NCBI GenBank assembly: GCA_001560915.1
Contig: CP014214.1
Coordinates: 1,550,001-1,614,000 of the forward strand
DNA from: a methanogenic archaeon ISO4-H5
GTDB lineage: Archaea; Thermoplasmatota; Thermoplasmata; Methanomassiliicoccales; Methanomethylophilaceae
DNA: 64,000 bases
Direction of reading: 5' to 3'
Shown: in pieces, positions 38,779-53,743 of the stretch
Position numbering within the stretch: the stretch's first letter is position 1
How the letters are laid out: each line of letters starts with the position of its first letter
Position numbers and translations under genes: made by a program
Notes under the pieces: generated by a model
Told to the model about the DNA's origin: nothing
The model's database searches: none
The model's input: the letters and a program-made list of their open reading frames with translations, nothing else

Positions 38779-41700
38779 ATGAGCTTGGAGAACGAATTAT
38801 TCCACGAGCTGTTATTGAAGAGGGATGACCTCAGAAAAAAGAATGCGAATGCCAGCGGAAGGGAGCCGCCCATATGCAGCGACGCCGCCCTTCAGGAGAT
38901 GGCACAGCGTGTACCGACCAAGCTTGAGGATTTCAAAGCCATCGAGGGAATCGGCGACCGTTTCGTGGAACAATACGGACCCGCTTTCCTGGCAATCACC
39001 AAGAAATATGCGGTTACTGCCGCCAAGGGTTCCGCCATCGACCGCCGTCTGGCCCAGACCCTGAGGGAACTGCAGAAGAAGCTCGTCAACATCAGCAAGG
39101 CGAACCGTCTCCTCTTCCAGCCCAAGACCAGCAAGAAGTATTCCTTCGACCCCTGCGTCACCGGCAAGGGCACCGAGGCCCTGGGTCTCATATTCGGAAA
39201 CAAGAGGGTCGTCAATCTGTGCGACTCCAAATCCAAAGAGGACGCCAAGGCATTCAAACGCGTCAACGAGATCATCAGGGAGGTCAGCCGCGACCAGAGG
39301 GAGAAGGGAGCCTTCGACCTCTATCTGGCCTATCCCTTCGTAGAAGGACGCCTGGTCGGCGACGACGATTTCCCCATCCGCGCCCCGCTCGCCCTCTTCC
39401 CCGTGACCCTCGAGAAGGAAGGTACGGCCATCAAGCTCAGGATGGACGACTCCAGGGATGCGGTATTCAACAACACCCTCCTGCTCGCGGCCATGAAGAT
39501 CGGAGGCAGGAACCGTCCCCTGCCCGACAATGTCATCGAGACCTACGACGAGAAGAACTTCATCAACGACCTCAAACAGTTCTACGAGAGCGAGGGAATG
39601 CATCTCGTATTCCCCTCCAAGAAATCCGTTACCGAATTCGTCGAATACAAGGTAGCCGAGTTCCCCGACTATGCCCCCGGGGACCTGCATGTGGTCCACA
39701 ACATCGTGGTCGGGAAATATCCCTCCTACTCCAGCTTCATCCAGAGGGACTTCGACACCCTCCTCTCCGGCAAGGAGATCAACAACAGCCTCGCCGACCT
39801 CATCAAGGACCTCAACAACGAGGATTTCTACTCCGACTACCCCATGCCCCTGTCCGACGAGGACATGAAGTCCCAGGGAGTCATGGCATCGGAGAAGGAC
39901 CTCTATTACATCAACTCGCTCAACAGCGCCCAGGAGAACATCCTGACCGCCATCCAGAAGAAGGACGAACTCGTCGTCCAGGGACCTCCCGGCACCGGTA
40001 AGTCGCAGGTCATCACCGGGCTCATCTCCGCCGCGGTCGCCACCGGCAAGACCGTGCTGATGGTCTCGGAAAAGAAAACGGCACTGGATGTCGTGTACTC
40101 GAGGATGGGTACACTTTCGAAGTTCTGCATGCAGATCGACGACACCGCCGACAAGGACAGCTTCTACAAGCAGCTGTCCACCATGCTCAGCATCCAGCCC
40201 GTGGCCAACAGCGTCAGCCTGGATGCCATATCCGCGGAGATCGACCGCGACATCGGAAAACTCACGCACATCGCATCGGAGGTCTACGACGAAGGCGACT
40301 TCGGGGTCCCTGCCTGCAGCCTGTACGCCATGGACAGGTGGCTGGACCTCAGCGACAAGGTGCAGTACGAGACATACAAGCGTTACAAGGACAACGTCGC
40401 CGCCTCCCTCACCCGCACCGACTTCTCGACGATCAAGGACCTGCACATGAAGTTCGCCAACCCCTCGCTTATCAACAACATCCGCGACTACGAGAACGTC
40501 CTCGACAAATCCCCATGGATGGCCTTCATGAAATCGGACCTCAGCAGCTACGAGCTCAGCGAGATGAAAGCTGACCTGGAGAGGCTAGATGCCGAGGTCA
40601 GGGACCTCAACAGCAAGGGATTCATCTCCAGGCTCTTCTCCAAGGGAAAGGTCACCCGCGACGCCACCGACCTTGCCAACAAATACTTCACCAACTTCAG
40701 CAACAAGACCATCGAGGAGATCAAGAACGACCCGGTCTCCCTCATCGACACCGTTGACGATTACGACGTGTTCTGCGCCAGGTCCACCGTGTACCGCGGC
40801 CTGACCGACCTGGAGAAAGAGTACGGCAGAAGCGTCCTGGACCTCAGCAAGGTGACCAAGAGCTCGGACGCCACCACCAACGACGAGATCTACAGGTTCA
40901 TCCTCAACGACCACCTGCAGAGGTTCGATGCCTCCCACAAGGACATCCTCCAGGAGCTCCACGACTTCGACAGCATCATCAGCAACATCGACCGCAACAT
41001 GGAACAGAAGCGCGCCATGACCCGCAGGCTGATGGAGGGCATCCTCAGCAACGACCTCAGGTATATCACCGAATCCAAGAGGAGGGGCGACATAGCCAGG
41101 ATCGTCGAGAACAAGAGGAAGTGGAGCCTCAACAAGTTCATCAACCGTTACGGATTCGAACTGTTCAAGGGAATCCGCGTATGGCTGCTCACCCCCGAGG
41201 TCGTATCCGACATCATCCCCATGGAGATGGGTCTGTTCGACCTGCTTATCTTCGACGAGGCTTCGCAGATGTACGTCGAGAAGGGTATCCCCTCCATCTA
41301 CCGTGCCAAGAAGGTCGTCATCGCCGGTGACCACAAACAGCTGAGGCCTTCCAGCCTCGGTACCGGAAGGGTCACCTACGACGAGGACGAGGATGACGAG
41401 GAGGAGATGATGAACGGCGCCCTCGAGGAGGAGAGCCTCCTGGATCTCGCCCGTGCAAGGTACGACAGCATCCTGCTCAACTTCCATTACAGGTCCCGTT
41501 ACGAGGAGCTCATCGCCTTCTCCAACTATGCGTTCTACGGCGGCAAGCTGTATGTGTCGCCCAACATCGTCCAGCCCGAGAGGCCTCCCATCGAGGTCAT
41601 AAAAGTGGACGGTACCTGGGTCGACAGGCACAACGAGGCCGAAGCCGACAAGGTCGTGGAGCTCCTCAGGGAGTTCTTCCTGACCAGGCAGAACCGCGAG

Positions 41701-42519
41701 ACCGTCGGTATCATCACCTTCAACGTGTCGCAGCGCGACCTGGTCTACGACAGGATCGAGGAGTACGCCGCCACCGACCCCGCATTCGCCACCGCAGTCT
41801 CGGAGGAGATGAAGCGTTTCGACAACGGAGAGGATGTCGGTCTCTTCGTGAAGAACATCGAGTCCGTGCAGGGTGACGAGAGGGATGTCATCATCTTCTC
41901 CGTGGCCTACGCCAAGAACGAGGACGGCAAGCTCATGCAGAGGTTCGGATGGCTCAACATGCGCGGAGGGGAGAACAGGCTCAACGTCGCCATCTCCCGT
42001 GCCAAGAAGAAGATCTTCATCGTCGATTCCATCGAACCCGAGGACCTCCAGGTCGACGGCCTCAAGAGCGACGGCCCCAGGATCCTCAAGAAATATCTCC
42101 AGTACGCCAAGGCCGTCAGCGACGGAAACACCCCGCTGGCACATTCCATCCTGCAGAGCTTCATCCCCTCCAGGGACGAGTATGCAGACGAGATCGGCAG
42201 CGAGACCCCTGTCATGAACAGGGTGTACACTGCTCTGGTCAGGAAGGGATACACCGTCGAGAAGAACATCGGTATCGGCGGATACACCATCGATCTGGCG
42301 GTCAAGCAGGACAATAGGTTCATCCTAGGTATCGAATGCGACAGCCACATCTACTCGCTCTCGAAGGACACCAGGGAGAGGGATTACCACCGCCAGAAAT
42401 ACCTCGAATCAAGGGGATGGCACATCCACAGGGTATGGACCCCGGGTATGTACAAGAACCCCGAGGCGGAGATCTCCAAGATCGTCACGGCCATCGAGCA
42501 TGCGGAATTGGCTCCCTGA
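38779..42519 (+). CDS. Giant SF1 helicase: HRDC, DUF4011, helicase and C-terminal nuclease
   Basis: A 1246-residue protein. In order: an HRDC-like domain (residues about 25-75, CSDAALQEMAQRVPTKLEDF then GIGDRFVEQYG); a DUF4011-type segment with QKKLVNISKANRLLF; Walker A VVQGPPGTGKSQVI near residue 408; Walker B LIFDEASQMYVEKG; GDHKQLRPSSLG; SVQGDERDVIIFS; NVAISRAKKKIF. The end (residues about 1140-1240) is a Vsr/MTES_1575-like nuclease with IDLAVKQDNRFILGIECD and RDYHRQKYLESRGWHIHRVW. Proteins of this layout often occur in defence or repair contexts, but here it stands alone among ordinary genes. All helicase motifs look intact. Confidence 0.9.
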   Translation: MSLENELFHELLLKRDDLRKKNANASGREPPICSDAALQEMAQRVPTKLEDFKAIEGIGDRFVEQYGPAFLAITKKYAVTAAKGSAIDRRLAQTLRELQKKLVNISKANRLLFQPKTSKKYSFDPCVTGKGTEALGLIFGNKRVVNLCDSKSKEDAKAFKRVNEIIREVSRDQREKGAFDLYLAYPFVEGRLVGDDDFPIRAPLALFPVTLEKEGTAIKLRMDDSRDAVFNNTLLLAAMKIGGRNRPLPDNVIETYDEKNFINDLKQFYESEGMHLVFPSKKSVTEFVEYKVAEFPDYAPGDLHVVHNIVVGKYPSYSSFIQRDFDTLLSGKEINNSLADLIKDLNNEDFYSDYPMPLSDEDMKSQGVMASEKDLYYINSLNSAQENILTAIQKKDELVVQGPPGTGKSQVITGLISAAVATGKTVLMVSEKKTALDVVYSRMGTLSKFCMQIDDTADKDSFYKQLSTMLSIQPVANSVSLDAISAEIDRDIGKLTHIASEVYDEGDFGVPACSLYAMDRWLDLSDKVQYETYKRYKDNVAASLTRTDFSTIKDLHMKFANPSLINNIRDYENVLDKSPWMAFMKSDLSSYELSEMKADLERLDAEVRDLNSKGFISRLFSKGKVTRDATDLANKYFTNFSNKTIEEIKNDPVSLIDTVDDYDVFCARSTVYRGLTDLEKEYGRSVLDLSKVTKSSDATTNDEIYRFILNDHLQRFDASHKDILQELHDFDSIISNIDRNMEQKRAMTRRLMEGILSNDLRYITESKRRGDIARIVENKRKWSLNKFINRYGFELFKGIRVWLLTPEVVSDIIPMEMGLFDLLIFDEASQMYVEKGIPSIYRAKKVVIAGDHKQLRPSSLGTGRVTYDEDEDDEEEMMNGALEEESLLDLARARYDSILLNFHYRSRYEELIAFSNYAFYGGKLYVSPNIVQPERPPIEVIKVDGTWVDRHNEAEADKVVELLREFFLTRQNRETVGIITFNVSQRDLVYDRIEEYAATDPAFATAVSEEMKRFDNGEDVGLFVKNIESVQGDERDVIIFSVAYAKNEDGKLMQRFGWLNMRGGENRLNVAISRAKKKIFIVDSIEPEDLQVDGLKSDGPRILKKYLQYAKAVSDGNTPLAHSILQSFIPSRDEYADEIGSETPVMNRVYTALVRKGYTVEKNIGIGGYTIDLAVKQDNRFILGIECDSHIYSLSKDTRERDYHRQKYLESRGWHIHRVWTPGMYKNPEAEISKIVTAIEHAELAP

Positions 42520-42611: not shown

Positions 42612-44726
42612 ATGTACAAGTTGGCGGTCTACGGAAAAGGGGGTATCGGGAAATCATCGATATCGTCCAACCTATCGTATATCCTTTCAACAAGGGGCCT
42701 GAAGGTTCTCCACGTCGGATGCGACCCCAAACACGATAGCACCAGACTGCTCACGGACGGGATCCCCCAGAGTACGTTCATGGAATCCCTTACCGAAAAA
42801 GGGAAGGATGAAGTCATAGCGAAAGGATCTAACGGCATCTACTGTATGGAATGCGGCGGTGCCGAACCGGGTATCGGATGTGCCGGAAAGGGTATGACCG
42901 CTATGTTCAATTATATCTCGGAACACACACCGGAGGATACGCAGGTAAGGGTCTGCGATGTCCTGGGGGATGTCGTGTGCGGAGGTTTCTCCGTGCCCAT
43001 GCGCAGGAACAACGTGGATGGAATCGTAATAATCGCATCCGAGGAGTTCATGTCCATATATGCCGCCAACAACATCCTCAGAGGTATCGCCAACCTCAAC
43101 GGCACGGCCTGCGTCCTCGGGATGGTGATCAACAGCCGCGACCCTGAGGATTCCGCAAGAATCGAATCGTTCGCCAAAGCGGCGGGGATAAGGATCCTCG
43201 GCATCGTTTCCCGCAGCGCCCTCTTCTCCAAAGCGGAATCCAGCGGCAAGACAGTCAGCGAACTGTTCCCAGATTCTCCCTCTTACAGGGAGCTGGCACA
43301 TATAGCGGATATGATCCAGGATGCAATGGCTGGCAGGCTGGAACCTCTGCCTGCCAAACCTCTCTCCGACCGTGCCATGATGCAGATCGCGGCCGGAAAA
43401 GAAGTGACCGATGACGAACCCCCCAAGGTACGAACATCCTGCAGTTTCGACTCCTACGACAGGGAACGCAACGTCGTATACAGCGGGGACTTCGTCATGC
43501 CGGCATGCACCTCCCACGGTGCGTTCGAGATGCTGGCGAACCTGACCGATGCCGCCATGATTCTTCACGGGGCGAACAACTGCGCGTTCCTGGACGAGTA
43601 TGCCTGGAACAGGGAGACCTATTGGGTCAGTTTCAGTTCCGGGAGATCCAGGAAATGCAACATATACTCGACCGGGCTCGATGAGAAGACGGTATTCACC
43701 GGAGACACCGAGATTCTGAAGAAGACCATACATAAGGCGGCCTCCGACGGGTTCCGCTACATCTTCGTAATACCCACATGCACTTCCGAGATCATCGGGA
43801 CCGACATACGCGGCATAGCGGAGAGCGCCGAGGAAGAAGGCGTTACGATCATACCCGTATCCGCGGACAGAAGTTTCCTTTCCAGTAAATTCGGTTCCTA
43901 CACCGGTTCGGTCCTGGCACTGTCCAGCATGATGGATTGGGGCGCCCCCAGAATCCCTGGCACAGTCTCATTCATCGGCATGGATAACTACCCGAAGAGG
44001 GACGAGAACAGCAGGTACATGGATTCCGTCCTGGCGAATTTCGGACTTAGACGCAACGGCGACTTCATCGCAGTAGAGACTGTTGCCGAGCTGATGAAGG
44101 TCCCCACCTCCCAATACCTCATAGCGATGGGACAGACGTTCTTCACCAAGCGCATAATGGATGTGGTTTCGGACCGTCGCGACATCCTGCACCTGGAGTC
44201 GATGGACGGCATGAAAGGGCTGCGCACCTGGTGCGAGACCCTCGGAAAGGTTACCGGCAGACCCGAGGATGCGGAGAGATTCCTCGAAACGGAGGAGAGG
44301 CTCTACCGTTCCGAGATATCCGAGATAAGAAAGAGGACCGAGGGAAGGAAGGCCATCATCTATACAGGTTCCGACACCGACTCCCTTGACTGGTATGTCG
44401 AGGTCCTCGATGATCTCGGAATCGAGGTACTGGCTATAGTCCTCTGGAAGAAGAGATTCGAGGACCGCTCCAGGAAGAAATGCACCTACTCCGGGATCAA
44501 GAGGATGCCTGATGTGGAGCTATGCCATCTCAAAAGTACGGCCGAATCCCTGGGAGCGGACCTGATAATCTCCGGGGATACAAGGGCCGGACGTGCGGGA
44601 ATCCCCTGGTCGGGGATGGCAGTCCCTTACATCGGACGTATCGGTGCGGTACAATGGGCCAAACGCCTCAGCAGGTGCCTCAGCATCAAACCCGGAGAAG
44701 GGTGGAACATGGAGGTCTCCCAATGA
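42612..44726 (+). CDS. Nitrogenase-like fusion: NifH-type reductase joined to NifD-type component
   Basis: A 704-residue protein. Residues 1-255 are a complete NifH/ChlL/CfbC-like ATPase: YGKGGIGKSS at 7-16, and the 4Fe-4S cysteines C90 (EPGIGCAGKG) and C123 (DVLGDVVCGGF). A roughly 30-residue linker leads to a NifD/E/BchN-like part with C299 (PACTSHGAF), C324 (HGANNCAF) and C390 (IPTCTSEIIGTD). The spacings of 25 and 66 match the P-cluster ligand positions of NifD. STGLDEKTVFTGDTEILKKTI-type sequence confirms the family. NifH-type reductases are normally separate homodimers, so the fusion is unusual. The role is inferred: reduction of a tetrapyrrole, given the chelatase in the operon. An atypical CfbC-CfbD for F430 is the main alternative. 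Confidence 0.9.
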   Translation: MYKLAVYGKGGIGKSSISSNLSYILSTRGLKVLHVGCDPKHDSTRLLTDGIPQSTFMESLTEKGKDEVIAKGSNGIYCMECGGAEPGIGCAGKGMTAMFNYISEHTPEDTQVRVCDVLGDVVCGGFSVPMRRNNVDGIVIIASEEFMSIYAANNILRGIANLNGTACVLGMVINSRDPEDSARIESFAKAAGIRILGIVSRSALFSKAESSGKTVSELFPDSPSYRELAHIADMIQDAMAGRLEPLPAKPLSDRAMMQIAAGKEVTDDEPPKVRTSCSFDSYDRERNVVYSGDFVMPACTSHGAFEMLANLTDAAMILHGANNCAFLDEYAWNRETYWVSFSSGRSRKCNIYSTGLDEKTVFTGDTEILKKTIHKAASDGFRYIFVIPTCTSEIIGTDIRGIAESAEEEGVTIIPVSADRSFLSSKFGSYTGSVLALSSMMDWGAPRIPGTVSFIGMDNYPKRDENSRYMDSVLANFGLRRNGDFIAVETVAELMKVPTSQYLIAMGQTFFTKRIMDVVSDRRDILHLESMDGMKGLRTWCETLGKVTGRPEDAERFLETEERLYRSEISEIRKRTEGRKAIIYTGSDTDSLDWYVEVLDDLGIEVLAIVLWKKRFEDRSRKKCTYSGIKRMPDVELCHLKSTAESLGADLIISGDTRAGRAGIPWSGMAVPYIGRIGAVQWAKRLSRCLSIKPGEGWNMEVSQ

Positions 44727-46054: not shown

Positions 46055-46810
46055 ATGAAAGGAATCCTCATCTGTGCACATGGTTCGACAGAGTCTGAGA
46101 CAGGCAGTGCGGTAAGAGAACACAGCGCCCGCGTATCGTCGCTGACCGGCTTTCCGGTGTATTACGGATTCAACGCCAGCGAGGAACCTTCCATAACGGA
46201 TGCTTTACACAAGATGTCGGCGGACGGTTTCGATAACGTCATCGTCATCCCCCTTTTCTTCGCACCGGGATTCTTGGCGAACAAAATAGTTCCCAAAGCA
46301 CTGGGCATGGAACCCGAGACCACTGAGGGCGAGGTTACGATAGAAGGGCATACTATCAGAATCCGTATAACCGGTGTGTTCGGCGACCATCCCGGAATGA
46401 AAGACGTCCTTCGGGAGGTGATATCCTCGTGCGGAGCGTCTGCGAAAGACACCGCGGTCATTCTGATCGGACACGGTTCCAAGGACGGAAAGAATTCTGC
46501 TACGGTCAGATACAATGCGTCCTTCGTATCCGAAATGGGTTACGAGGTGTTCTGTGCATACAATGAGATGCAGTCCCCGACGGTTGAGGAAGCCCTGAAG
46601 AGCGCTTTGGGAACAGGATGCAAACAGATAATCGCCATCCCCATGTTCGTCTCTCCCAGCGTCCACAGCACCGAGGAGATCCCCGCGAAACTCGGTATCA
46701 AGGAAGGCAGGAAGACTGCCGTCGGAAATACCGAAGTGATCTACTGTCAGGAGATCGGCATGCATCCCAAGATAGCCGATATCCTGGCCGAACGTGCGGG
46801 AAGCGTCTGA
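46055..46810 (+). CDS. Two-domain CbiX-type metallochelatase
   Basis: A 251-residue protein made of two tandem CbiX-like domains. Each starts with the active-site pattern: LICAHGSTESETG at residue 5 and VILIGHGSKDGKN at about 137. Archaeal CbiX-S/CfbA chelatases are usually single domains of about 130 residues acting as dimers; this one is the duplicated, CbiX-L/SirB-like form. Such enzymes insert cobalt, nickel or iron into sirohydrochlorin. It lies 30 bases after the NifK-like gene on the same strand, so a tetrapyrrole is the likely shared substrate. The metal cannot be read from sequence. Confidence 0.85.
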   Translation: MKGILICAHGSTESETGSAVREHSARVSSLTGFPVYYGFNASEEPSITDALHKMSADGFDNVIVIPLFFAPGFLANKIVPKALGMEPETTEGEVTIEGHTIRIRITGVFGDHPGMKDVLREVISSCGASAKDTAVILIGHGSKDGKNSATVRYNASFVSEMGYEVFCAYNEMQSPTVEEALKSALGTGCKQIIAIPMFVSPSVHSTEEIPAKLGIKEGRKTAVGNTEVIYCQEIGMHPKIADILAERAGSV

Positions 46811-47563
46811 TCAGTAAAGCTTCTTCCTGATCACGATGTGGCATATCGCATAGAACGCTGCCAAGTAAATCAGCATCACGAGGATGGGGATCCACTGATC
46901 CCCAATCCAACCGATGCCAGGGGCATTCGCTGCGGCACGCAGCAGGCTGGTCGTGTGGGATAGCGGTAGCGCCCAGACTATGTATGATGCGGCCTGGGGC
47001 AGAGCATCTACATCGAACAGCGTTCCGCACATGAACGACATGGGCAGAATCAGGACACTGTTGAACATCATCAGCGTGGGAGTGGAGTTGGCGAGAAGAC
47101 CCGCGGCGACTCCCAGCAGCGAGAAGGTGATGCTCGACAGGATCATCATGAGAATCAGCCACGGTGTGATGAAAAGACCATCGGTCAGTAACATACCCAG
47201 ACATAGGATGATTACTCCGCTCATGAGTCCTCTGATGATTCCCATTATACACTTTCCGAAGATTATGGAGGTCGTATGCATGGGGCAGAGGATCAGCTCA
47301 TCGAAACTGGAATGGAACAGCCTCTGGATGAGGATCTTCTGCGATGAGGATGAGAACCCGGAATTCATCGAGGAGATCGCCACGATACCCGGGATCACAT
47401 ATGCAATGTATCCCGAATCCCCGGAACGCATACCGTAACCGAATGCGATCAGGTACAGCAGCGGACCTACCAGCGAGGAGACCATCACCTGGATCGCGTT
47501 GCGCTTCATGTAGCACAGGTCCCCATAGGCGACCCTGAACGTCTCCGACAGGATATTGTGCAT
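46811..47563 (-). CDS. ABC-2 type permease
   Basis: A 250-residue membrane protein with six hydrophobic segments (LVGPLLYLIAFGYGM, GLMSGVIILCLGMLL and LMMFNSVLILPMSFMCGTLF among them), typical of DrrB/NodJ-like exporters. Its ATG overlaps the stop of the ATPase gene, its obvious partner. The stop abuts that of the chelatase gene on the other strand. The substrate is unknown; as the last member of the importer operon it may expel a product or toxic intermediate. Confidence 0.85.
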   Translation of the reverse strand: MHNILSETFRVAYGDLCYMKRNAIQVMVSSLVGPLLYLIAFGYGMRSGDSGYIAYVIPGIVAISSMNSGFSSSSQKILIQRLFHSSFDELILCPMHTTSIIFGKCIMGIIRGLMSGVIILCLGMLLTDGLFITPWLILMMILSSITFSLLGVAAGLLANSTPTLMMFNSVLILPMSFMCGTLFDVDALPQAASYIVWALPLSHTTSLLRAAANAPGIGWIGDQWIPILVMLIYLAAFYAICHIVIRKKLY

Positions 47564-48426
47564 CAGAGCTTCCTCCCGGTCAGTTCGAGGAACACATCCT
47601 CCAGATTGGTCTCGCGGATGCTGATGTTGTTGTTCTCCCCTATCTCGAGAGATGCTTTCTTGGCAGAATCTCTGTCGTCGAAGTACGAGAAGGATTCGTT
47701 ACCCTCGGGGTCGGTGGATACCAGGGTTATGTTCCCAATGCGGGATTTCAGTTCGTCGGGTGTGCCCTCGGCAATCATCTTCCCTTTGTTGATGATGCCG
47801 ACACGGTCGCATAGCGAGTCCGCCTCGAATATGTAGTGTGTGGTGAGGAAAATCGTGGTTCCGCGCTTGTTGATGCTGCGGATCATCTTCCACAGCATGT
47901 TCCTCGACTGGGTGTCCAATCCGGTGGTGGGTTCGTCCATGAAAAGTATGTCTGGGTCATGGATCAGCGAACATACGATGGCCACCCTCTTCTTCCATCC
48001 TCCGGAGAGTTTGGAGACCAGTGTGTCCATACGGCGGTCCAGCTCCATTATGGATGAAAGCTCCGCCATGCGCTGCTTCGCCTCCTTCAGCGAGAGGTTC
48101 TGCATGAGTGCATGATGCAGGATGTTCTCCTTGACCGAGATGTCCTTGTCAAGACTGTTCTGCTGCTGGATCATCCCTATGTTCCGGCGGGCATCTATGA
48201 AACGGGTCTTGGTGTCGAAGCCCTCGATCTTTATGGTTCCCTCGTCGGGGAGATCGACGGTGGTCAGCATACGGACAGTGGTGGTCTTGCCCGCACCGTT
48301 AGGTCCGAGGAATCCGTAGATCTCACCTTTGCGGACGGTTATGTCCAGATGGTCTACGGCAGTGAGATCTCCGAATCTCTTGACGAGACCGAAACCTTCG
48401 ATGATCGGTTCTTCCGTCAATACCAC
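47563..48426 (-). CDS. ABC exporter ATP-binding protein (DrrA-like)
   Basis: A 287-residue ATPase: Walker A GFLGPNGAGKTTTVRML, signature KLSGGWKKRVAIVCSL, Walker B ILFMDEPTTGLD, switch LTTHYIFEAD. The end continues into a DUF4162-like domain. Starts at 48426 (GTG) or 48420 (TTG, overlapping the stop of the preceding permease gene); both give near-identical proteins. It is coupled to permeases on both sides. Confidence 0.88.
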   Translation of the reverse strand: MVLTEEPIIEGFGLVKRFGDLTAVDHLDITVRKGEIYGFLGPNGAGKTTTVRMLTTVDLPDEGTIKIEGFDTKTRFIDARRNIGMIQQQNSLDKDISVKENILHHALMQNLSLKEAKQRMAELSSIMELDRRMDTLVSKLSGGWKKRVAIVCSLIHDPDILFMDEPTTGLDTQSRNMLWKMIRSINKRGTTIFLTTHYIFEADSLCDRVGIINKGKMIAEGTPDELKSRIGNITLVSTDPEGNESFSYFDDRDSAKKASLEIGENNNISIRETNLEDVFLELTGRKL

Positions 48427-49481
48427 ACCTTCCTAGCTCCCTTGATGAGAAGCATGATGAATATCGGACCACCGATAATCGCCGTGATGACTCCCACGTG
48501 CATGGTGTCGGAGGCCATCTTCGCAATCAGATCGCAGATCACCAGCACTGCAGCCCCCACGGCCGCGGAACACGGAAGAAGACGTTTGAGATTGGAACCC
48601 ACCAGGATCCTGGCGATATGCGGAGCGACGAGTCCCATGAATCCGATGGTACCGCAGTAACCGACGATCACTGCGGTCATTATCGCTATGACCACGAGAC
48701 ACACCATGCGCACCAGTCTGGTGCGCACACCCATGGATTTCGCACTGTTCTCACCCGCGGTCATCATCGTGACCTGATGGCTGAGCACCCAAAGCAGGAT
48801 GATACCTATGAGGGTGGAACCCGCGATTATCCAGATATTGTCCCACCTGGCAGATCCGACCGTTCCGACGTTCCACATGTACAGCGATTCCACCGCCTCA
48901 GGGTCCGCATACAGGGTCATGAGCGAGGTGGCTGCCCTGAACACGTACATGACGGCGATTCCTGCCAGGATCATGGTGGTCGGGGTGATCGAACGCCTTT
49001 GAGAAATCGCCAGGATGGCGAATGTCGGGACCAGTGCCAGGATAGATGCGTTGATCGTGAGTCCCAGATTATAATCGTCGACCGGGATGATGGATATCCC
49101 GAGCATGATGTACAATGCCGCACCGAACGATGCTCCCGACGCCACACCGGTCGTGTACGGTTCGGCAAGGGGGTTGCGCAGAAGCGACTGCATCACGACT
49201 CCGGCGACTGCCAGACCCGCACCGGCCACGACTCCGAGTATGGCCCGGGGGACGTACATCTCCCATACGATGAGATTCTCGTAATAGTCGGGATACGTGT
49301 CTCCTCCGAGATGCACAGACAGGATGTCCCACGTTACCGAAGGATTGAGCGTGGAGAATCTGGAACAGAATATCGATACCGCTGCGACGGCCACTGCCAC
49401 CACCGCAAGGGCCGTTGCCAGAATGTATCTGCGCCGGATCCCCGCACGGTATTCGGTCTCCAGAGGGCTGCACTCATCCAT
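48417..49481 (-). CDS. FecCD-family ABC permease 2
   Basis: A 354-residue permease with about ten helices. FecCD/BtuC motifs are visible: ARAILGVVAGAGLAVAGVVM, NPLAEPYTTGVASGASFGA and GTIGFMGLVAPHIARILVG. This family imports iron-siderophores, haem or cobalamin. Its ATG overlaps the stop of the other permease (TGATG). Having two different FecCD genes suggests a heterodimeric channel. Confidence 0.92.
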   Translation of the reverse strand: MDECSPLETEYRAGIRRRYILATALAVVAVAVAAVSIFCSRFSTLNPSVTWDILSVHLGGDTYPDYYENLIVWEMYVPRAILGVVAGAGLAVAGVVMQSLLRNPLAEPYTTGVASGASFGAALYIMLGISIIPVDDYNLGLTINASILALVPTFAILAISQRRSITPTTMILAGIAVMYVFRAATSLMTLYADPEAVESLYMWNVGTVGSARWDNIWIIAGSTLIGIILLWVLSHQVTMMTAGENSAKSMGVRTRLVRMVCLVVIAIMTAVIVGYCGTIGFMGLVAPHIARILVGSNLKRLLPCSAAVGAAVLVICDLIAKMASDTMHVGVITAIIGGPIFIMLLIKGARKVWY

Positions 49482-50590
49482 CAGAAACCCTCTCCGTACT
49501 TCTGCTTCCTGCGGACGATCATGTAGAGGAACAGCGGCGCACCGATGATGGACACGATAAGTCCGACACGCAGCTCCATCTCCGTGTAACCGTACATGTT
49601 CGGAAGCCTGGATAACAGGTCAGCCAACAGCATGAATGCCGCGCCGGACACCATGGAGGCGGGGATAAGATAGCGGTTATCGCCGCCGGTGACCATGCGC
49701 ACGATGTGCGGAGCCACCAATCCGACGAAACCGATGATGCCCACGAAACTCACCAGAGCGGCCACGGTGACGGACACCACTATCATGCATATCGTACGGA
49801 AGGTATCGACGTCCAGTCCCAGACTGGAGGCACTGTCATCGCCTAGTGCCAGCAGGTTGAGTTTATTGCTCACGAAGATTAGGAAAGCACCGCATACCGC
49901 GGTCACGATGAACGGTATCCTGCAGTCGTTCCAGGATACACCGTTGAAGTTACCGATCTGCCACAGATAAGCCTCTTTCAGGGTCTCTGCATCGGTTGTT
50001 ACCATTATCGCGGTCTCCAGACCGCTGAATATGTAGGATAAAGCAACACCCACCAGAATGGTCGTAGCCGGACTCATGTTGACGAAACGCGAGAGGAGGA
50101 TGATGACCACGGCAGGAATCATTCCGCCCAGGAAGGCATTGGATACCAGACCGATAGACGAATTGAACATGGAAAACGAATATCCGACGACGATGGCTGC
50201 CACTGCTCCGAAACACGCTCCGTCGGAGATACCGACTGTGTAAGGATCGGCGAGCGGGTTCTTCATAAGAGCCTGCATGGTGACTCCGCAGGCAGCGAGT
50301 CCCATACCGACGATGATCGCCATGCAGATACGCGGGAGACGGAAGTTCCACAGATTGTAATCCGCCACCCATGATTCGAGATCGGTGGTACGGTCGTAGG
50401 TCTTTCCGGCCAGGTGATCGATTATGTATCTGTAGCTTTCGACGAACCCTACACCCACATCATTCTGGGACAGGGATACGCCTGCGATTATGATTACAAC
50501 ACAGATGATCCCGAAAATCAGGAGCAGCTTACGGAAGGTATAACGCCCGTACGCCAGCTCTATCTCGCTCTTCTGCTCGTCACTGACCAT
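49481..50590 (-). CDS. FecCD-family ABC permease 1
   Basis: A 369-residue permease of the same family: LPRICMAIIVGMGLAACGVT, NPLADPYTVGISDGACFGA and GIIGFVGLVAPHIVRMVTGG. It overlaps the ATPase gene by about 11 bases and the second permease by 1 base. Together with permease 2 it should form the membrane channel of the importer. The substrate class is metal chelate or corrinoid. Confidence 0.92.
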   Translation of the reverse strand: MVSDEQKSEIELAYGRYTFRKLLLIFGIICVVIIIAGVSLSQNDVGVGFVESYRYIIDHLAGKTYDRTTDLESWVADYNLWNFRLPRICMAIIVGMGLAACGVTMQALMKNPLADPYTVGISDGACFGAVAAIVVGYSFSMFNSSIGLVSNAFLGGMIPAVVIILLSRFVNMSPATTILVGVALSYIFSGLETAIMVTTDAETLKEAYLWQIGNFNGVSWNDCRIPFIVTAVCGAFLIFVSNKLNLLALGDDSASSLGLDVDTFRTICMIVVSVTVAALVSFVGIIGFVGLVAPHIVRMVTGGDNRYLIPASMVSGAAFMLLADLLSRLPNMYGYTEMELRVGLIVSIIGAPLFLYMIVRRKQKYGEGF

Positions 50591-51461
50591 CGGAAACCTC
50601 TTTGGATATCTCGGGAACGGATGTGCTGGAACATGCGTCTTCGCAATGAACGGAAGCTTCGATCTCCCCCTCGCATCCGCAGTTCTCGAACGATGGGTCC
50701 TTGATGATCATGAACGGACGTCCCTCGGACTGGATGACCTCGGATTCCACGCCGTATACCTCGCGGATATTCTCGGCGGTTATGATCTCCTCGGGAGTCC
50801 CGACGGCGAACACCTTCCCTTTGGAAAGCATGATGATATTGTCGGAATACTTGGCCGCCAGATTCAGATCGTGACTTATCATTACCACCATGACGCCCTT
50901 GCGTACGGACAGGGTCTTGAGAAGACGCGTGACCTCCATCTGGTGTCTTATGTCGAGATTCGCCGTTGGTTCGTCCAGAAGGAGGATCTGGGGTTCCTGG
51001 GCCAGTCCCCTGGCGAGCATGACACGCTGATGCTGTCCTGCTGAAAGCTCGTTGAAGTTGCGCATAGCCAGCGGCTTGATGTCCATGAGCTCCATGGCCT
51101 CTTCGACGACCACCATGTCATCGTGAAGGGACTTCCATTTCCTGTGCGGATTACGTCCCATGAGGATCGTATCCACCACTGTCATCGGGAACGTGTCTGT
51201 GGCAGCATAGGGGACATATCCCACTACCTTGGCCAGTTCCTTGGCGCCGTATTCCGTCACGGGTTTTTCGTCGACCAGAACAGTACCCTTGGTGGGTTGG
51301 AGGATCCGGTCGATACAGTGTATCAGAGTGGATTTCCCGACACCGTTGGGTCCGATGATGGAGACCAGCTGCGGCTTCCTGATACTGATATTGATCCCAT
51401 TGAGAACGATGGCCTCCTGGGAGTAGGAATACTCCAGGTCCTGAATGTCCACTTGCACCAT
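50580..51461 (-). CDS. FecE/BtuD-type importer ATPase with cysteine-rich tail
   Basis: About 293 residues. Walker A SIIGPNGVGKSTLIHC, signature ELSAGQHQRVMLARGL, Walker B ILLLDEPTANLD and switch MISHDLNL are all present. Beyond the normal end is a roughly 35-residue tail with C261, C263, H272, C273 and C277 (ENCGCEGE then ASVHCEDAC), unusual for this family and suited to binding a metal or cluster. The ATG at 51461 begins the conserved sequence, 43 bases after the stop of the binding-protein gene. Longer in-frame starts exist but run into that gene. Confidence 0.88.
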   Translation of the reverse strand: MVQVDIQDLEYSYSQEAIVLNGINISIRKPQLVSIIGPNGVGKSTLIHCIDRILQPTKGTVLVDEKPVTEYGAKELAKVVGYVPYAATDTFPMTVVDTILMGRNPHRKWKSLHDDMVVVEEAMELMDIKPLAMRNFNELSAGQHQRVMLARGLAQEPQILLLDEPTANLDIRHQMEVTRLLKTLSVRKGVMVVMISHDLNLAAKYSDNIIMLSKGKVFAVGTPEEIITAENIREVYGVESEVIQSEGRPFMIIKDPSFENCGCEGEIEASVHCEDACSSTSVPEISKEVSDGQ

Positions 51462-51504
51462 GTTATCAAAATGGAAGAAAGGGGATTTCTCCCCCGGTTT
51501 GTAC

Positions 51505-53649
51505 TCACTTGGCTCCGTTGCACTTGCACTTGGCAATGCAGGACTGGTCTCCGGCGGAAACGGTGATGTTCACAACCTCTGCAGTCGTATCATCGACACG
51601 CTTGAGGACGACGGTCACCTTTCCGTCACACTCGTCGAAACTGACGACCTTCACGATGGAGTCGTTGCTGCTGGTGACGGCCAGGTCATCAATGTTGGCT
51701 GCTTCGGGTGCGACAGTGAAGACGAACTCGTAATCGTAGGATGAGGTGCCCCTCATGGTCTTGTAGTCCTGGACCACACCTTTCGATACGGTCTGGCCTT
51801 CCGTCCAGGTGATTCCGGTAACAGCTTTGTCACTGACAGTAACGACACATGTGTCCGAGACGTCGCCCACGGATGCAGTAATGGTTGCGATACCAATGGC
51901 CTTGGCGATGACGACCCCATCTCCTACCGCCACGATACTGTCGTCGCTGCTGGTCAGAGAGAAGCTGTCGATGCTTGCGTTGGAAGGAGTGATGGTGTAT
52001 GTCAGGGTGGCTTTGCCATCTTTTCCGAGAGATACTGTATCTTTGGAGAGCTGGATCTCGGTGGCCTTTACATCCTGGACGGTGACGGTACAGGTATCGG
52101 TGGCATCACCGATCGAAATAGTGATGGTGGCGATACCGGCAGCCAGTGCGGTGATCTTTCCGAGCGAGACCGTGGCAACAGAGGTGTTGTCAGAGGTCCA
52201 GATAGGAGTGGTGTCGGTAGCACCGTCGTTAATGGTGTATGTAAGCTGGGCACTGTTACTGAGTCCGAGAGTCAGAGATTCCTCGGAAAGGGTCACGGAT
52301 TTAGCGGGCACGTATCCGGATCCCTCCTTGAATGACCACATGACGGTGTGATCGGCGGCCTTCCAATCCTTCAGATCAGTGAATGAATCGACGAAATCCT
52401 GGAAGACGGTTGCTCCGTATCCTTTGCCGACACTGTCGGTGTACATGACCTCGGCCATGTATGCCAGCCTGGCGGGCAGAGGGATGAGTCCGTTGAGGAG
52501 GTAGTAGCCTCCGTTCTTGAACATAGTGGTCTCGGAGAAGTAAGCAGAATACTCCTTGAGATTGTCCTTGATAGTCTCCGCATCCATATCGAGGCTGTGA
52601 CCTCCCATGGACTTGAAGTGGATCATGTAATTGGCATTGTATTTGGACTCGTACAGCCAGGTGTCTCCGTTGCTGGGGTTGAACTTCTTGGTGCTGGTGG
52701 TCCAGTCAGCAATGTTCTTACCGCCGGCGAGGACAGTGGCCGCATAGTAGTCGGAGGGAGTTCCGCTGACGGAATTACTCATAACGACACTGAGAACGGT
52801 GGCGGTACCGAACTTGCTGCCGGTCTTGTTCTTGATGGTGTCGGTGACATCCTCGACCAGATCGATGTAGTTGGCAGCCTTGTCGGACTTCTGAACGAGG
52901 ATTCCGATGGTGGCCACGGACTGGAGACTGGTGGTTGCGCTGTCAAAGTTGAACTGGAGGACCTTTGCTCCGATCGAATCATAGAACGACCTGGCGGCAT
53001 CTCCGTTGTAACCGCCCATTCCGCTCTCCTCGAGGATGGCGGCCTGGAACGTGGTCTTAGACAGATCGGAGATGTCTTGCTCAGTGGCATTGGAGGTCAG
53101 GCGGGGGATCTTTCCGGAAAATCCATCCGCATTGGTGACAGACATGAGCTCTTTGTCGATATCGTTGAGGTAGGTATCGTTGGTAGCAAGACAGACGATG
53201 TTGTCCTGCAGATCGAGGACATTGGCAACGGTACGTCCGTTTACCTGTCCGAAAAAGAAGATACTCTTCAGGGGGAAGGGCACTGTGACGACATTCTTCA
53301 GGGCATCGATGACCTTGACAGTGGCATCGGCAGGCTGGGTTCCGTCCACAAGGGACTTGACAAAGTCATAGTCGGCCTGTTCGACGGTTCCGTTGTTGTC
53401 AGCGTCTGCCAGGGGATAATCCTTCAGGAGGCTGGGGGTGTCCATCACCTTTTTGATGATATTCAAATCCGCGTCGCTGAATTTGGTATCTCCGTCGGCA
53501 TTACCGTAGACGAGACCGTATGAACCGGCCACATCGGCGGCTTTTTCGTTACTGCTGCCGTTGTTATTGGAGAGGACCACAAAGGCTCCTGCTCCTGCGG
53601 CAACCACTACGATTGCCACGACGGCGATTATCAGGGATTTTGATGACAT
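51505..53649 (-). CDS. Surface substrate-binding protein with dockerin-like and BIG2 domains
   Basis: A 714-residue exported protein, first gene of the importer operon. An N-terminal anchor helix (SLIIAVVAIVVVAAGAGAFV) without lipobox is followed by two EF-hand/dockerin-like repeats (GNADGDTKFSDADLNII and ADADNNGTVEQADYDFV). Next comes a periplasmic-binding-protein region (about 90-450; YDSIGAKVLQFNF, GILVQKSDKAANYI), then two BIG2 Ig-like domains and a third related one (from about 465). The end has three close cysteines, SCIAKCKCNG. A TATA-like TTTATAAAC at 53676-53684 fits the ATG at 53649. The likely ligand is a metal chelate or tetrapyrrole. Confidence 0.82.
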   Translation of the reverse strand: MSSKSLIIAVVAIVVVAAGAGAFVVLSNNNGSSNEKAADVAGSYGLVYGNADGDTKFSDADLNIIKKVMDTPSLLKDYPLADADNNGTVEQADYDFVKSLVDGTQPADATVKVIDALKNVVTVPFPLKSIFFFGQVNGRTVANVLDLQDNIVCLATNDTYLNDIDKELMSVTNADGFSGKIPRLTSNATEQDISDLSKTTFQAAILEESGMGGYNGDAARSFYDSIGAKVLQFNFDSATTSLQSVATIGILVQKSDKAANYIDLVEDVTDTIKNKTGSKFGTATVLSVVMSNSVSGTPSDYYAATVLAGGKNIADWTTSTKKFNPSNGDTWLYESKYNANYMIHFKSMGGHSLDMDAETIKDNLKEYSAYFSETTMFKNGGYYLLNGLIPLPARLAYMAEVMYTDSVGKGYGATVFQDFVDSFTDLKDWKAADHTVMWSFKEGSGYVPAKSVTLSEESLTLGLSNSAQLTYTINDGATDTTPIWTSDNTSVATVSLGKITALAAGIATITISIGDATDTCTVTVQDVKATEIQLSKDTVSLGKDGKATLTYTITPSNASIDSFSLTSSDDSIVAVGDGVVIAKAIGIATITASVGDVSDTCVVTVSDKAVTGITWTEGQTVSKGVVQDYKTMRGTSSYDYEFVFTVAPEAANIDDLAVTSSNDSIVKVVSFDECDGKVTVVLKRVDDTTAEVVNITVSAGDQSCIAKCKCNGAK

Positions 53650-53675
53650 AATATCCAACTGACAATACATCCAAT

Positions 53676-53743
53676 AGTTTATAAATTTAGGCATCACTAA
53701 AAATAACTATTACGGCTGTTTAAAAGTTTTAGTTATGCCTAAA
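53676..53743 (-). promoter_or_regulatory. TATA box and two inverted DtxR-like operators
   Basis: TTTAGGCATCACTAAA at 53686-53701 and TTTAGTTATGCCTAAA at 53728-53743 are inverted copies differing at one base. Each is an imperfect palindrome TTTAG-N6-CTAAA, close to the TTAGG...CCTAA boxes of archaeal DtxR-type metal-dependent repressors. The first touches the TATA-like sequence (53676-53688), so binding would block transcription of the importer operon. Metal repression is inferred. Confidence 0.6.

Follow-up and report, generated by a model that had tools for sequence, protein, structure and literature searches.

A recurrent NifH–NifD-type fusion in the nitrogenase superfamily, with links to cobalamin riboswitches, BtuCDF-type importers and chelatases

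In all characterized members of the nitrogenase superfamily, the reductase is a free protein that docks onto its catalytic partner and leaves; what, then, is to be made of a reductase that resides in one polypeptide with its NifD-type partner? The question is raised by a gene of the methanogenic archaeon ISO4-H5 (Methanomassiliicoccales, Methanomethylophilaceae), probably a methylotroph, whose genome is represented by one 1.94 Mb contig (99.9% complete), within a 64,000-nucleotide stretch of contig CP014214.1 (positions 1,550,001 to 1,614,000), hereafter the window. As the initial annotation had claimed, a single frame of 704 codons with no internal stop encodes a complete NifH-type ATPase (H), with the P-loop GKGGIGKS and the cluster cysteines C90 and C123, followed by a NifD-type domain (D) with cysteines C299, C324 and C390, each at the position assigned there (Table 1). 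The two domains of this HD protein are joined by a linker, again as annotated, but the linker is not very short; it comprises ~37 residues and is predicted to be disordered. An AlphaFold2 model built on an alignment of HD and its relatives has a mean pLDDT of 81.5, and in it residues 271–295 are a floppy tether between two well-folded parts. When the whole HD model was searched with Foldseek, only NifH chains were among the best 50 matches.

Table 1. Features of the fused gene and its surroundings in the window.
Feature	Coordinates	Strand	Evidence
Fused NifH–NifD-like protein (HD), 704 aa	42612..44726	+	Frame and translation, profile matches, recurrence
NifH-type reductase domain, residues 3–259	42618..43388	+	Pfam PF00142 (Fer4_NifH), E 2.3e-66
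C90 codon of H domain	42879–42881	+	Conservation in aligned fusions
C123 codon of H domain	42978–42980	+	Conservation in aligned fusions
HD linker, residues 262–298	43395..43505	+	Disordered core 271–295, AlphaFold2 pLDDT < 50
NifD-type domain, residues 299–665	43506..44606	+	Pfam PF00148 (Oxidored_nitro), 6.6e-43
D-domain cluster cysteines C299, C324, C390	43506–43508, 43581–43583, 43779–43781	+	Same columns Cys in true NifD
K-like partner, 433 aa	44723..46024	+	Pfam PF00148, next gene in 99/101 loci, AlphaFold2, Foldseek
Tandem CbiX/CfbA-like metallochelatase	46055..46810	+	NCBIfam F430_CfbA above cut-off, Pfam CbiX
ABC-2 type permease, probable exporter	46811..47563	-	Pfam PF01061
ABC ATPase of exporter	47563..48426	-	Pfam PF00005
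BtuC/FecCD-type permease	48417..49481	-	NCBIfam matches BtuC, FecCD, FhuB
Second BtuC/FecCD-like permease	49481..50590	-	ORF translation; sequence resemblance and position, without own domain scan
BtuD/FecE-type ABC ATPase	50580..51536	-	NCBIfam
Putative substrate-binding protein, dockerin-like and Big_2	51505..53697	-	Pfam Big_2; binding role suggested by position

The frame continues through the H–D junction without a stop. Because the host genome is a single, nearly complete contig and the same fused frame recurs in ~100 loci elsewhere, in many independent genomes, a sequencing error, frameshift or assembly join is ruled out. Full-length, single-frame matches to HD were found in most of the 147 genomes of the order, and 103 fused frames, often several per genome, were recovered from fetched regions of these genomes. 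These fusions fall into about ten clades; the one that includes HD of the window has 24 members (100% support), and the nearest relative of HD is 53% identical. Residue conservation, counted over 101 aligned fusions, is close to complete: the P-loop and C123 are invariant, C90 is present in 100/100 rows that have a residue there (one row is without its N-terminus), C324 and C390 are each found in 101/101, and C299 in 98/101. The same genome encodes a second, divergent fusion (C1:1373452-1375587, also seen as L040:8447-10660 on the minus strand) with an in-frame TAG in its D half, which may represent pyrrolysine read-through or gene decay; a conserved pyrrolysine codon is ruled out, as TAGs in fused genes of other genomes lie at unrelated positions.

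Fused members also occur outside the order, in Bacillota and other bacteria, with loci of Sporobacter (L143), Treponema (L145) and Clostridium tetanomorphum (L147), in Lachnospiraceae (L148, L156), Peptococcaceae (L149), Oscillospiraceae (L158), Myxococcota (L150) and SIT11 (L151), and in the archaea Methanoregula (L144) and Methanosarcina KYL-1 (L157). The fusion is no isolated case, being widespread in the order and present in several bacterial phyla. A search around G151, covering 394 genomes of the order of the Sporobacter MAG, returned separate NifH only and no further bacterial fusion. The Myxococcota MAG carries an H-H-D protein (L150:2627-5884) with two complete NifH-type domains, the P-loop and cluster cysteines intact in both, followed by K.

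Phylogenetic trees set the family apart. In an H tree of 112 rows, a branch with an SH-aLRT support of 99% separates the fused family from the remainder, and the sole 'unfused' row on its side, L154, comes from a contig that ends just after H; in the D/K tree, the D partners (99%) and the K partners (100%) each form a clade of their own. The references NifHDK/EN, CfbC and Roseobacter BchL/N/B all fall outside the fused H, D and K clades; these are quick trees in which long branches, such as BchL, are uncertain. The fused clade thus falls inside none of the characterized groups represented in the trees, BchXYZ and MarHDK being absent from them; placement of both halves inside such a group was an outcome that the initial annotation had named as refuting. 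The nearest unfused sequences belong to a Bacillota MAG (L162), Methanomicrobiales (L173/L188) and Negativicutes (L175/L181). An H-X-D protein of 999 aa from Bradymonadales (L200:5241-8240), with a NifH-type N-terminus, a long middle and a distant NifD-type C-terminus, is independent of the main clade, and H–D fusion has therefore arisen at least twice. The P-loop and both cluster cysteines of the reductase place the family in the superfamily, while in 103 frames the reductase is fused rather than free to dock and leave; we read the free reductase as a property common to all characterized members yet not one that defines a superfamily delimited by homology.

Directly downstream of 99/101 aligned fusions, typically within 12 bases, lies a K-like (NifK/BchB-like) gene, and the system is hence a two-gene operon, HD and K. 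In the window, the K start overlaps the HD stop in the sequence ATGA at 44723–44726, with GGAGGT upstream. The AlphaFold2 model of K (pLDDT 88.6) matches NifK and BchB in Foldseek, the top TM-score among the matches listed being that to DPOR BchB (3aeq, 0.80/0.82).

The cysteines of D and K point to the type of metal cluster that they would hold. C299, C324 and C390 of D occupy the columns in which true NifD has its P-cluster cysteines. In K, the only invariant cysteine is C30, which lies within a GPxGC motif; C66 is shared by 73% of the sequences. This pattern was confirmed on a set including bacteria. The [4Fe-4S] cluster of COR is bound by three cysteines from BchY and one from BchZ, and that of DPOR by three cysteines from BchN and an aspartate from BchB. 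The fused family shows, at the level of sequence pattern, the 3+1 ligand set of one such DPOR/COR-type [4Fe-4S] cluster, and C30 of K would be its fourth ligand. Both nitrogenase and MarHDK, the latter with a P-cluster and an [Fe8S9C] cluster, require six cysteines for the P-cluster and one for the cofactor (PMC12552129). The P-cluster set of three cysteines in D and three in K is incomplete here, with 3/3 in D and one invariant cysteine in K, and the FeMo-co ligands (NifD Cys275, His442) are absent from D, where the two columns hold N, G, Y, S and gaps or P, respectively.

The genes that adjoin archaeal fusions encode FecCD/BtuC permeases, ABC ATPases, binding proteins of the Peripla_BP_2 or dockerin-bearing kind and ABC-2 exporters, together with CobN/Mg-chelatase, ChlI-like AAA proteins, CbiZ, CbiK and CbiX. 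As controls we took 40 regions, each of 17 kb, drawn from eight genomes of the order; relative to these, the surroundings of 67 fusions were enriched in importer genes (40/67 versus 3/40, p 3e-8), in chelatase/corrinoid genes (21/67 versus 2/40, p 8e-4) and in ABC-2 exporters (24/67 versus 0/40). Across the 147 genomes, fusion and CobN occur together in 79, the fusion only in 10, CobN only in 5 and neither in 53 (Fisher p 9e-24, a value that ignores kinship and completeness and is inflated by the non-independence of the genomes), and in 10/16 near-complete genomes CobN and a fusion are no more than 20 kb apart (expected, 1.7). The Methanoregula locus has the order ChlI – ChlD-like – (transport genes) – HD – K – ABC-2 exporter – CobN. 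No CobN is found near the window fusion, both copies on the contig lying at a distance of at least ~0.7 Mb, and clade R2, which includes the second fusion of the host genome, has almost none of these importer and chelatase neighbors. The CfbA-like gene of the window, a second copy beside that of the complete cfbC-A-E-D-B operon located separately in the same genome (L041), has counterparts near only 2/67 fusions, which weakens it as the main functional clue.

Several further neighbors were recorded. A homologue of the putative binding protein of the window carries a Pfam dockerin domain, and dockerin-domain proteins like it adjoin many fusions in relatives. Near the second fusion, L040:15904-18960 (minus strand) combines a FecCD permease with a PQQ-type beta-propeller region and extra domains. 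Methyltransferases with an ArsR-type helix-turn-helix occur near fusions of the window's clade (L058:15026-16123 and others, clade W), 11/12 members of this methyltransferase family being so placed. At 38779-42519, the window encodes a protein of 1246 aa that combines HRDC, helicase and MTES_1575 nuclease domains and strongly matches the PADLOC candidate defence family PDC-S37 and Hhe.

Four of the eight bacterial fused loci (L143, L145, L149 and L151) possess an upstream cobalamin riboswitch on the strand of the fusion. The distance from the end of the aptamer to the fused gene is 166 nt in L149; in L151, HD-K is separated from the riboswitch by genes for an ECF transporter and a DUF4430 protein. 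Among the unfused sisters, a cobalamin riboswitch directly precedes H in L175 and L192, the Phascolarctobacterium faecium locus (L175) reading btuFCD – riboswitch – H – D – K – btuF – btuC – cobN, and L162 has two cobalamin riboswitches that are followed, in this order, by a gene for a TonB receptor, by ExbBD/TonB-like genes and by BtuF, BtuC, H, D and K. The riboswitches shared by bacterial fused loci and unfused sisters suggest that the ancestral setting, in bacteria at least, was probably the acquisition of tetrapyrroles in response to B12. The initial annotation had not linked the fusion to cobalamin riboswitches, B12-type transport or chelatases. None was detected in L181, L159, L147, L148, L150 or L158 (for L147, the C. 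tetanomorphum locus, even at a lax threshold), nor near the archaeal window fusion. The control scan was small, nine loci of which seven are neither fused nor sister (L152, L153, L160, L164, L165, L166 and L168), and 0/7 of these had a cobalamin riboswitch. Separately, a fluoride riboswitch (L143:6167-6240, minus strand) precedes a crcB-like gene beside heme/siroheme synthesis genes that lie downstream of the fused operon of L143.

We propose, with a probability of roughly 60% for the statement as a whole, that HD-K is an ATP-driven enzyme with a tethered reductase component and that it reduces a tetrapyrrole linked to corrinoid supply; that the substrate is a corrinoid in preference to heme we hold with less confidence than this. 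HD and K would constitute a two-polypeptide enzyme in which, judging by C90, C123 and the P-loop, ATP would be bound by the H domain and a [4Fe-4S] cluster would sit between two H domains; tethered by the linker beside its acceptor, the H domain would not diffuse. D and K together would hold one [4Fe-4S] relay cluster, as in DPOR and COR, with no FeMo-co-like cofactor. A D2K2-type assembly would have only two H domains, that is, one H dimer for two docking sites, so that only one half of HD-K may be active at any time, unless the H domains of a neighbor are borrowed; the H-H-D protein of L150 would provide a full H dimer per D. The most likely substrate would be a corrinoid, a corrinoid precursor or a related metallotetrapyrrole tied to the cobalamin economy of the cell, taken up via the adjoining BtuFCD-type importer; HD-K would reduce its ring or its metal, and a CobN/ChlI or CbiX-type chelatase would insert or strip the metal. 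Ring reduction has precedents in DPOR, COR and CfbCD. Reduction of the metal would aid de-chelation by CobN/HmuS-type proteins, and heme iron reduction has been reported for such proteins (PMC12583661). Against this proposal stand the siderophores and heme that FecCD/BtuC transporters also carry, clade R2, which has almost none of the neighbors, and the window fusion itself, which is without a nearby CobN or riboswitch.

The same breadth of FecCD-type importers would suit a role of HD-K in the use of heme or dietary tetrapyrroles by import, reduction, CobN/HmuS-like de-metallation to obtain iron and release of the spent ring via the ABC-2 exporter, which is the recurrent neighbor of fusions that this scheme would account for. 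In gut bacteria, the CobN relative HmuS takes iron from heme and needs a reductant, and for archaeal CobN/HmuS relatives the function is stated as unclear (PMC12583661). The riboswitches are cobalamin-specific, and CbiZ, a cobinamide-salvage enzyme, is found in some clusters; both argue against heme, which we regard as an unlikely substrate.

Cobalamin riboswitches also control B12-independent isoenzymes, a precedent by which HD-K could be a B12-independent substitute, for instance in a MarHDK-like sulfur/methionine route, induced when cobalamin is scarce. NifB is encoded in the genome, and cofactor supply would be possible; NifB is nearly universal in the order, equally present in genomes without the fusion, and is useless as a test for a large cofactor. 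The single invariant cysteine of K and the loss of the cofactor Cys and His, unlike MarHDK (PMC12552129), and a setting beside CobN, BtuFCD and CbiZ rather than sulfur genes, make this slightly less likely still.

More improbable is a role of HD-K as a CfbCD variant in the synthesis or repair of coenzyme F430, or of another nickel tetrapyrrole like it, aided by the adjoining CfbA-like chelatase. The H half does score best against the CfbC model among NCBIfam matches, albeit far below the cut-off (235.6 versus 402 bits), and the CfbA-like gene is just downstream of K. The D half barely matches CfbD (23.4 bits, cut-off 268.4), the same genome already has its complete cfb operon, and CfbA-like genes are rare near fusions. 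Fused forms occur in Clostridium and Treponema, and to our knowledge bacteria such as these do not use F430. Finally, replacement of the precorrin-6A reductase CbiJ in corrin biosynthesis, which would be a B12-regulated tetrapyrrole reduction, is highly improbable, with CbiJ present in the host genome, where such replacement is rejected, and in 65/89 genomes that have the fusion, and with several paralogues per genome misfitting a single pathway step.

Returning to the tethered tetrapyrrole reductase, we tentatively extend the proposal, at slightly under even odds, to an undescribed cobalamin-regulated corrinoid/tetrapyrrole reductase family in which the reductase is permanently tethered and electron delivery is intramolecular; with CobN-type chelatases, it would form a scavenging/remodeling system multiplied in gut methanogens, which would explain what the archaeal CobN/HmuS relatives do and give them a first role. 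Nitrogenase-type electron transfer is thought to require cyclic docking and release, a rule that a natural tether, and further the H-H-D protein with its two tethered reductase domains, could put directly to the test. The association with cobalamin riboswitches and CobN would add a new class of substrates to those of the superfamily. Surveys based on nifH will count the fused genes as nitrogen-fixation-like genes.

How does HD-K compare with what has been described? The initial annotation knew of no described example, and no functional description was found; Borrel et al. 2014 (PMC4153887) nevertheless label one gene of Ca. M. intestinalis in passing as a 'fused nifH/nifE', in a table that lists replication-origin boxes. 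This is apparently the same kind of gene as HD, present there as a label only, without family, partner, phylogeny or function. No report that connects nitrogenase-like genes to cobalamin riboswitches or to CobN/BtuC was found in the literature searched, which was limited to papers available without subscription.

NifEN and NifDK share the fold and the three cysteines of the D half, whose top score is against NifE (87 bits, below cut-off), but differ from HD-K in their FeMo-co ligands, in the P-cluster cysteine set of K and in their unfused reductase. MarHDK has the same H, D and K composition, and the D profile matches MarD (9d9u/9fmg) among solved structures; MarHDK differs in its P-cluster and [Fe8S9C] ligands (PMC12552129) and in its neighboring genes. 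CfbCD is likewise a system of methanogens in which a NifH-type ATPase acts on a metallotetrapyrrole; however, CfbD is a homodimer and CfbC is free, whereas here D is fused to H and a K partner is added. BchXYZ and BchLNB share with HD-K the NifH-type ATPase, the heteromeric PF00148 pair and the [4Fe-4S]-type pattern of three cysteines in the D-type subunit and one ligand from the K-type subunit, and they likewise work beside a CobN/ChlH-type chelatase, there in (bacterio)chlorophyll synthesis. Their reductase is separate, whereas HD is fused; H and D/K lie outside the Bch branch (represented in the trees by Roseobacter BchL, N and B only), and the hosts of HD-K are non-phototrophic, the system being tied instead to cobalamin riboswitches and importers.
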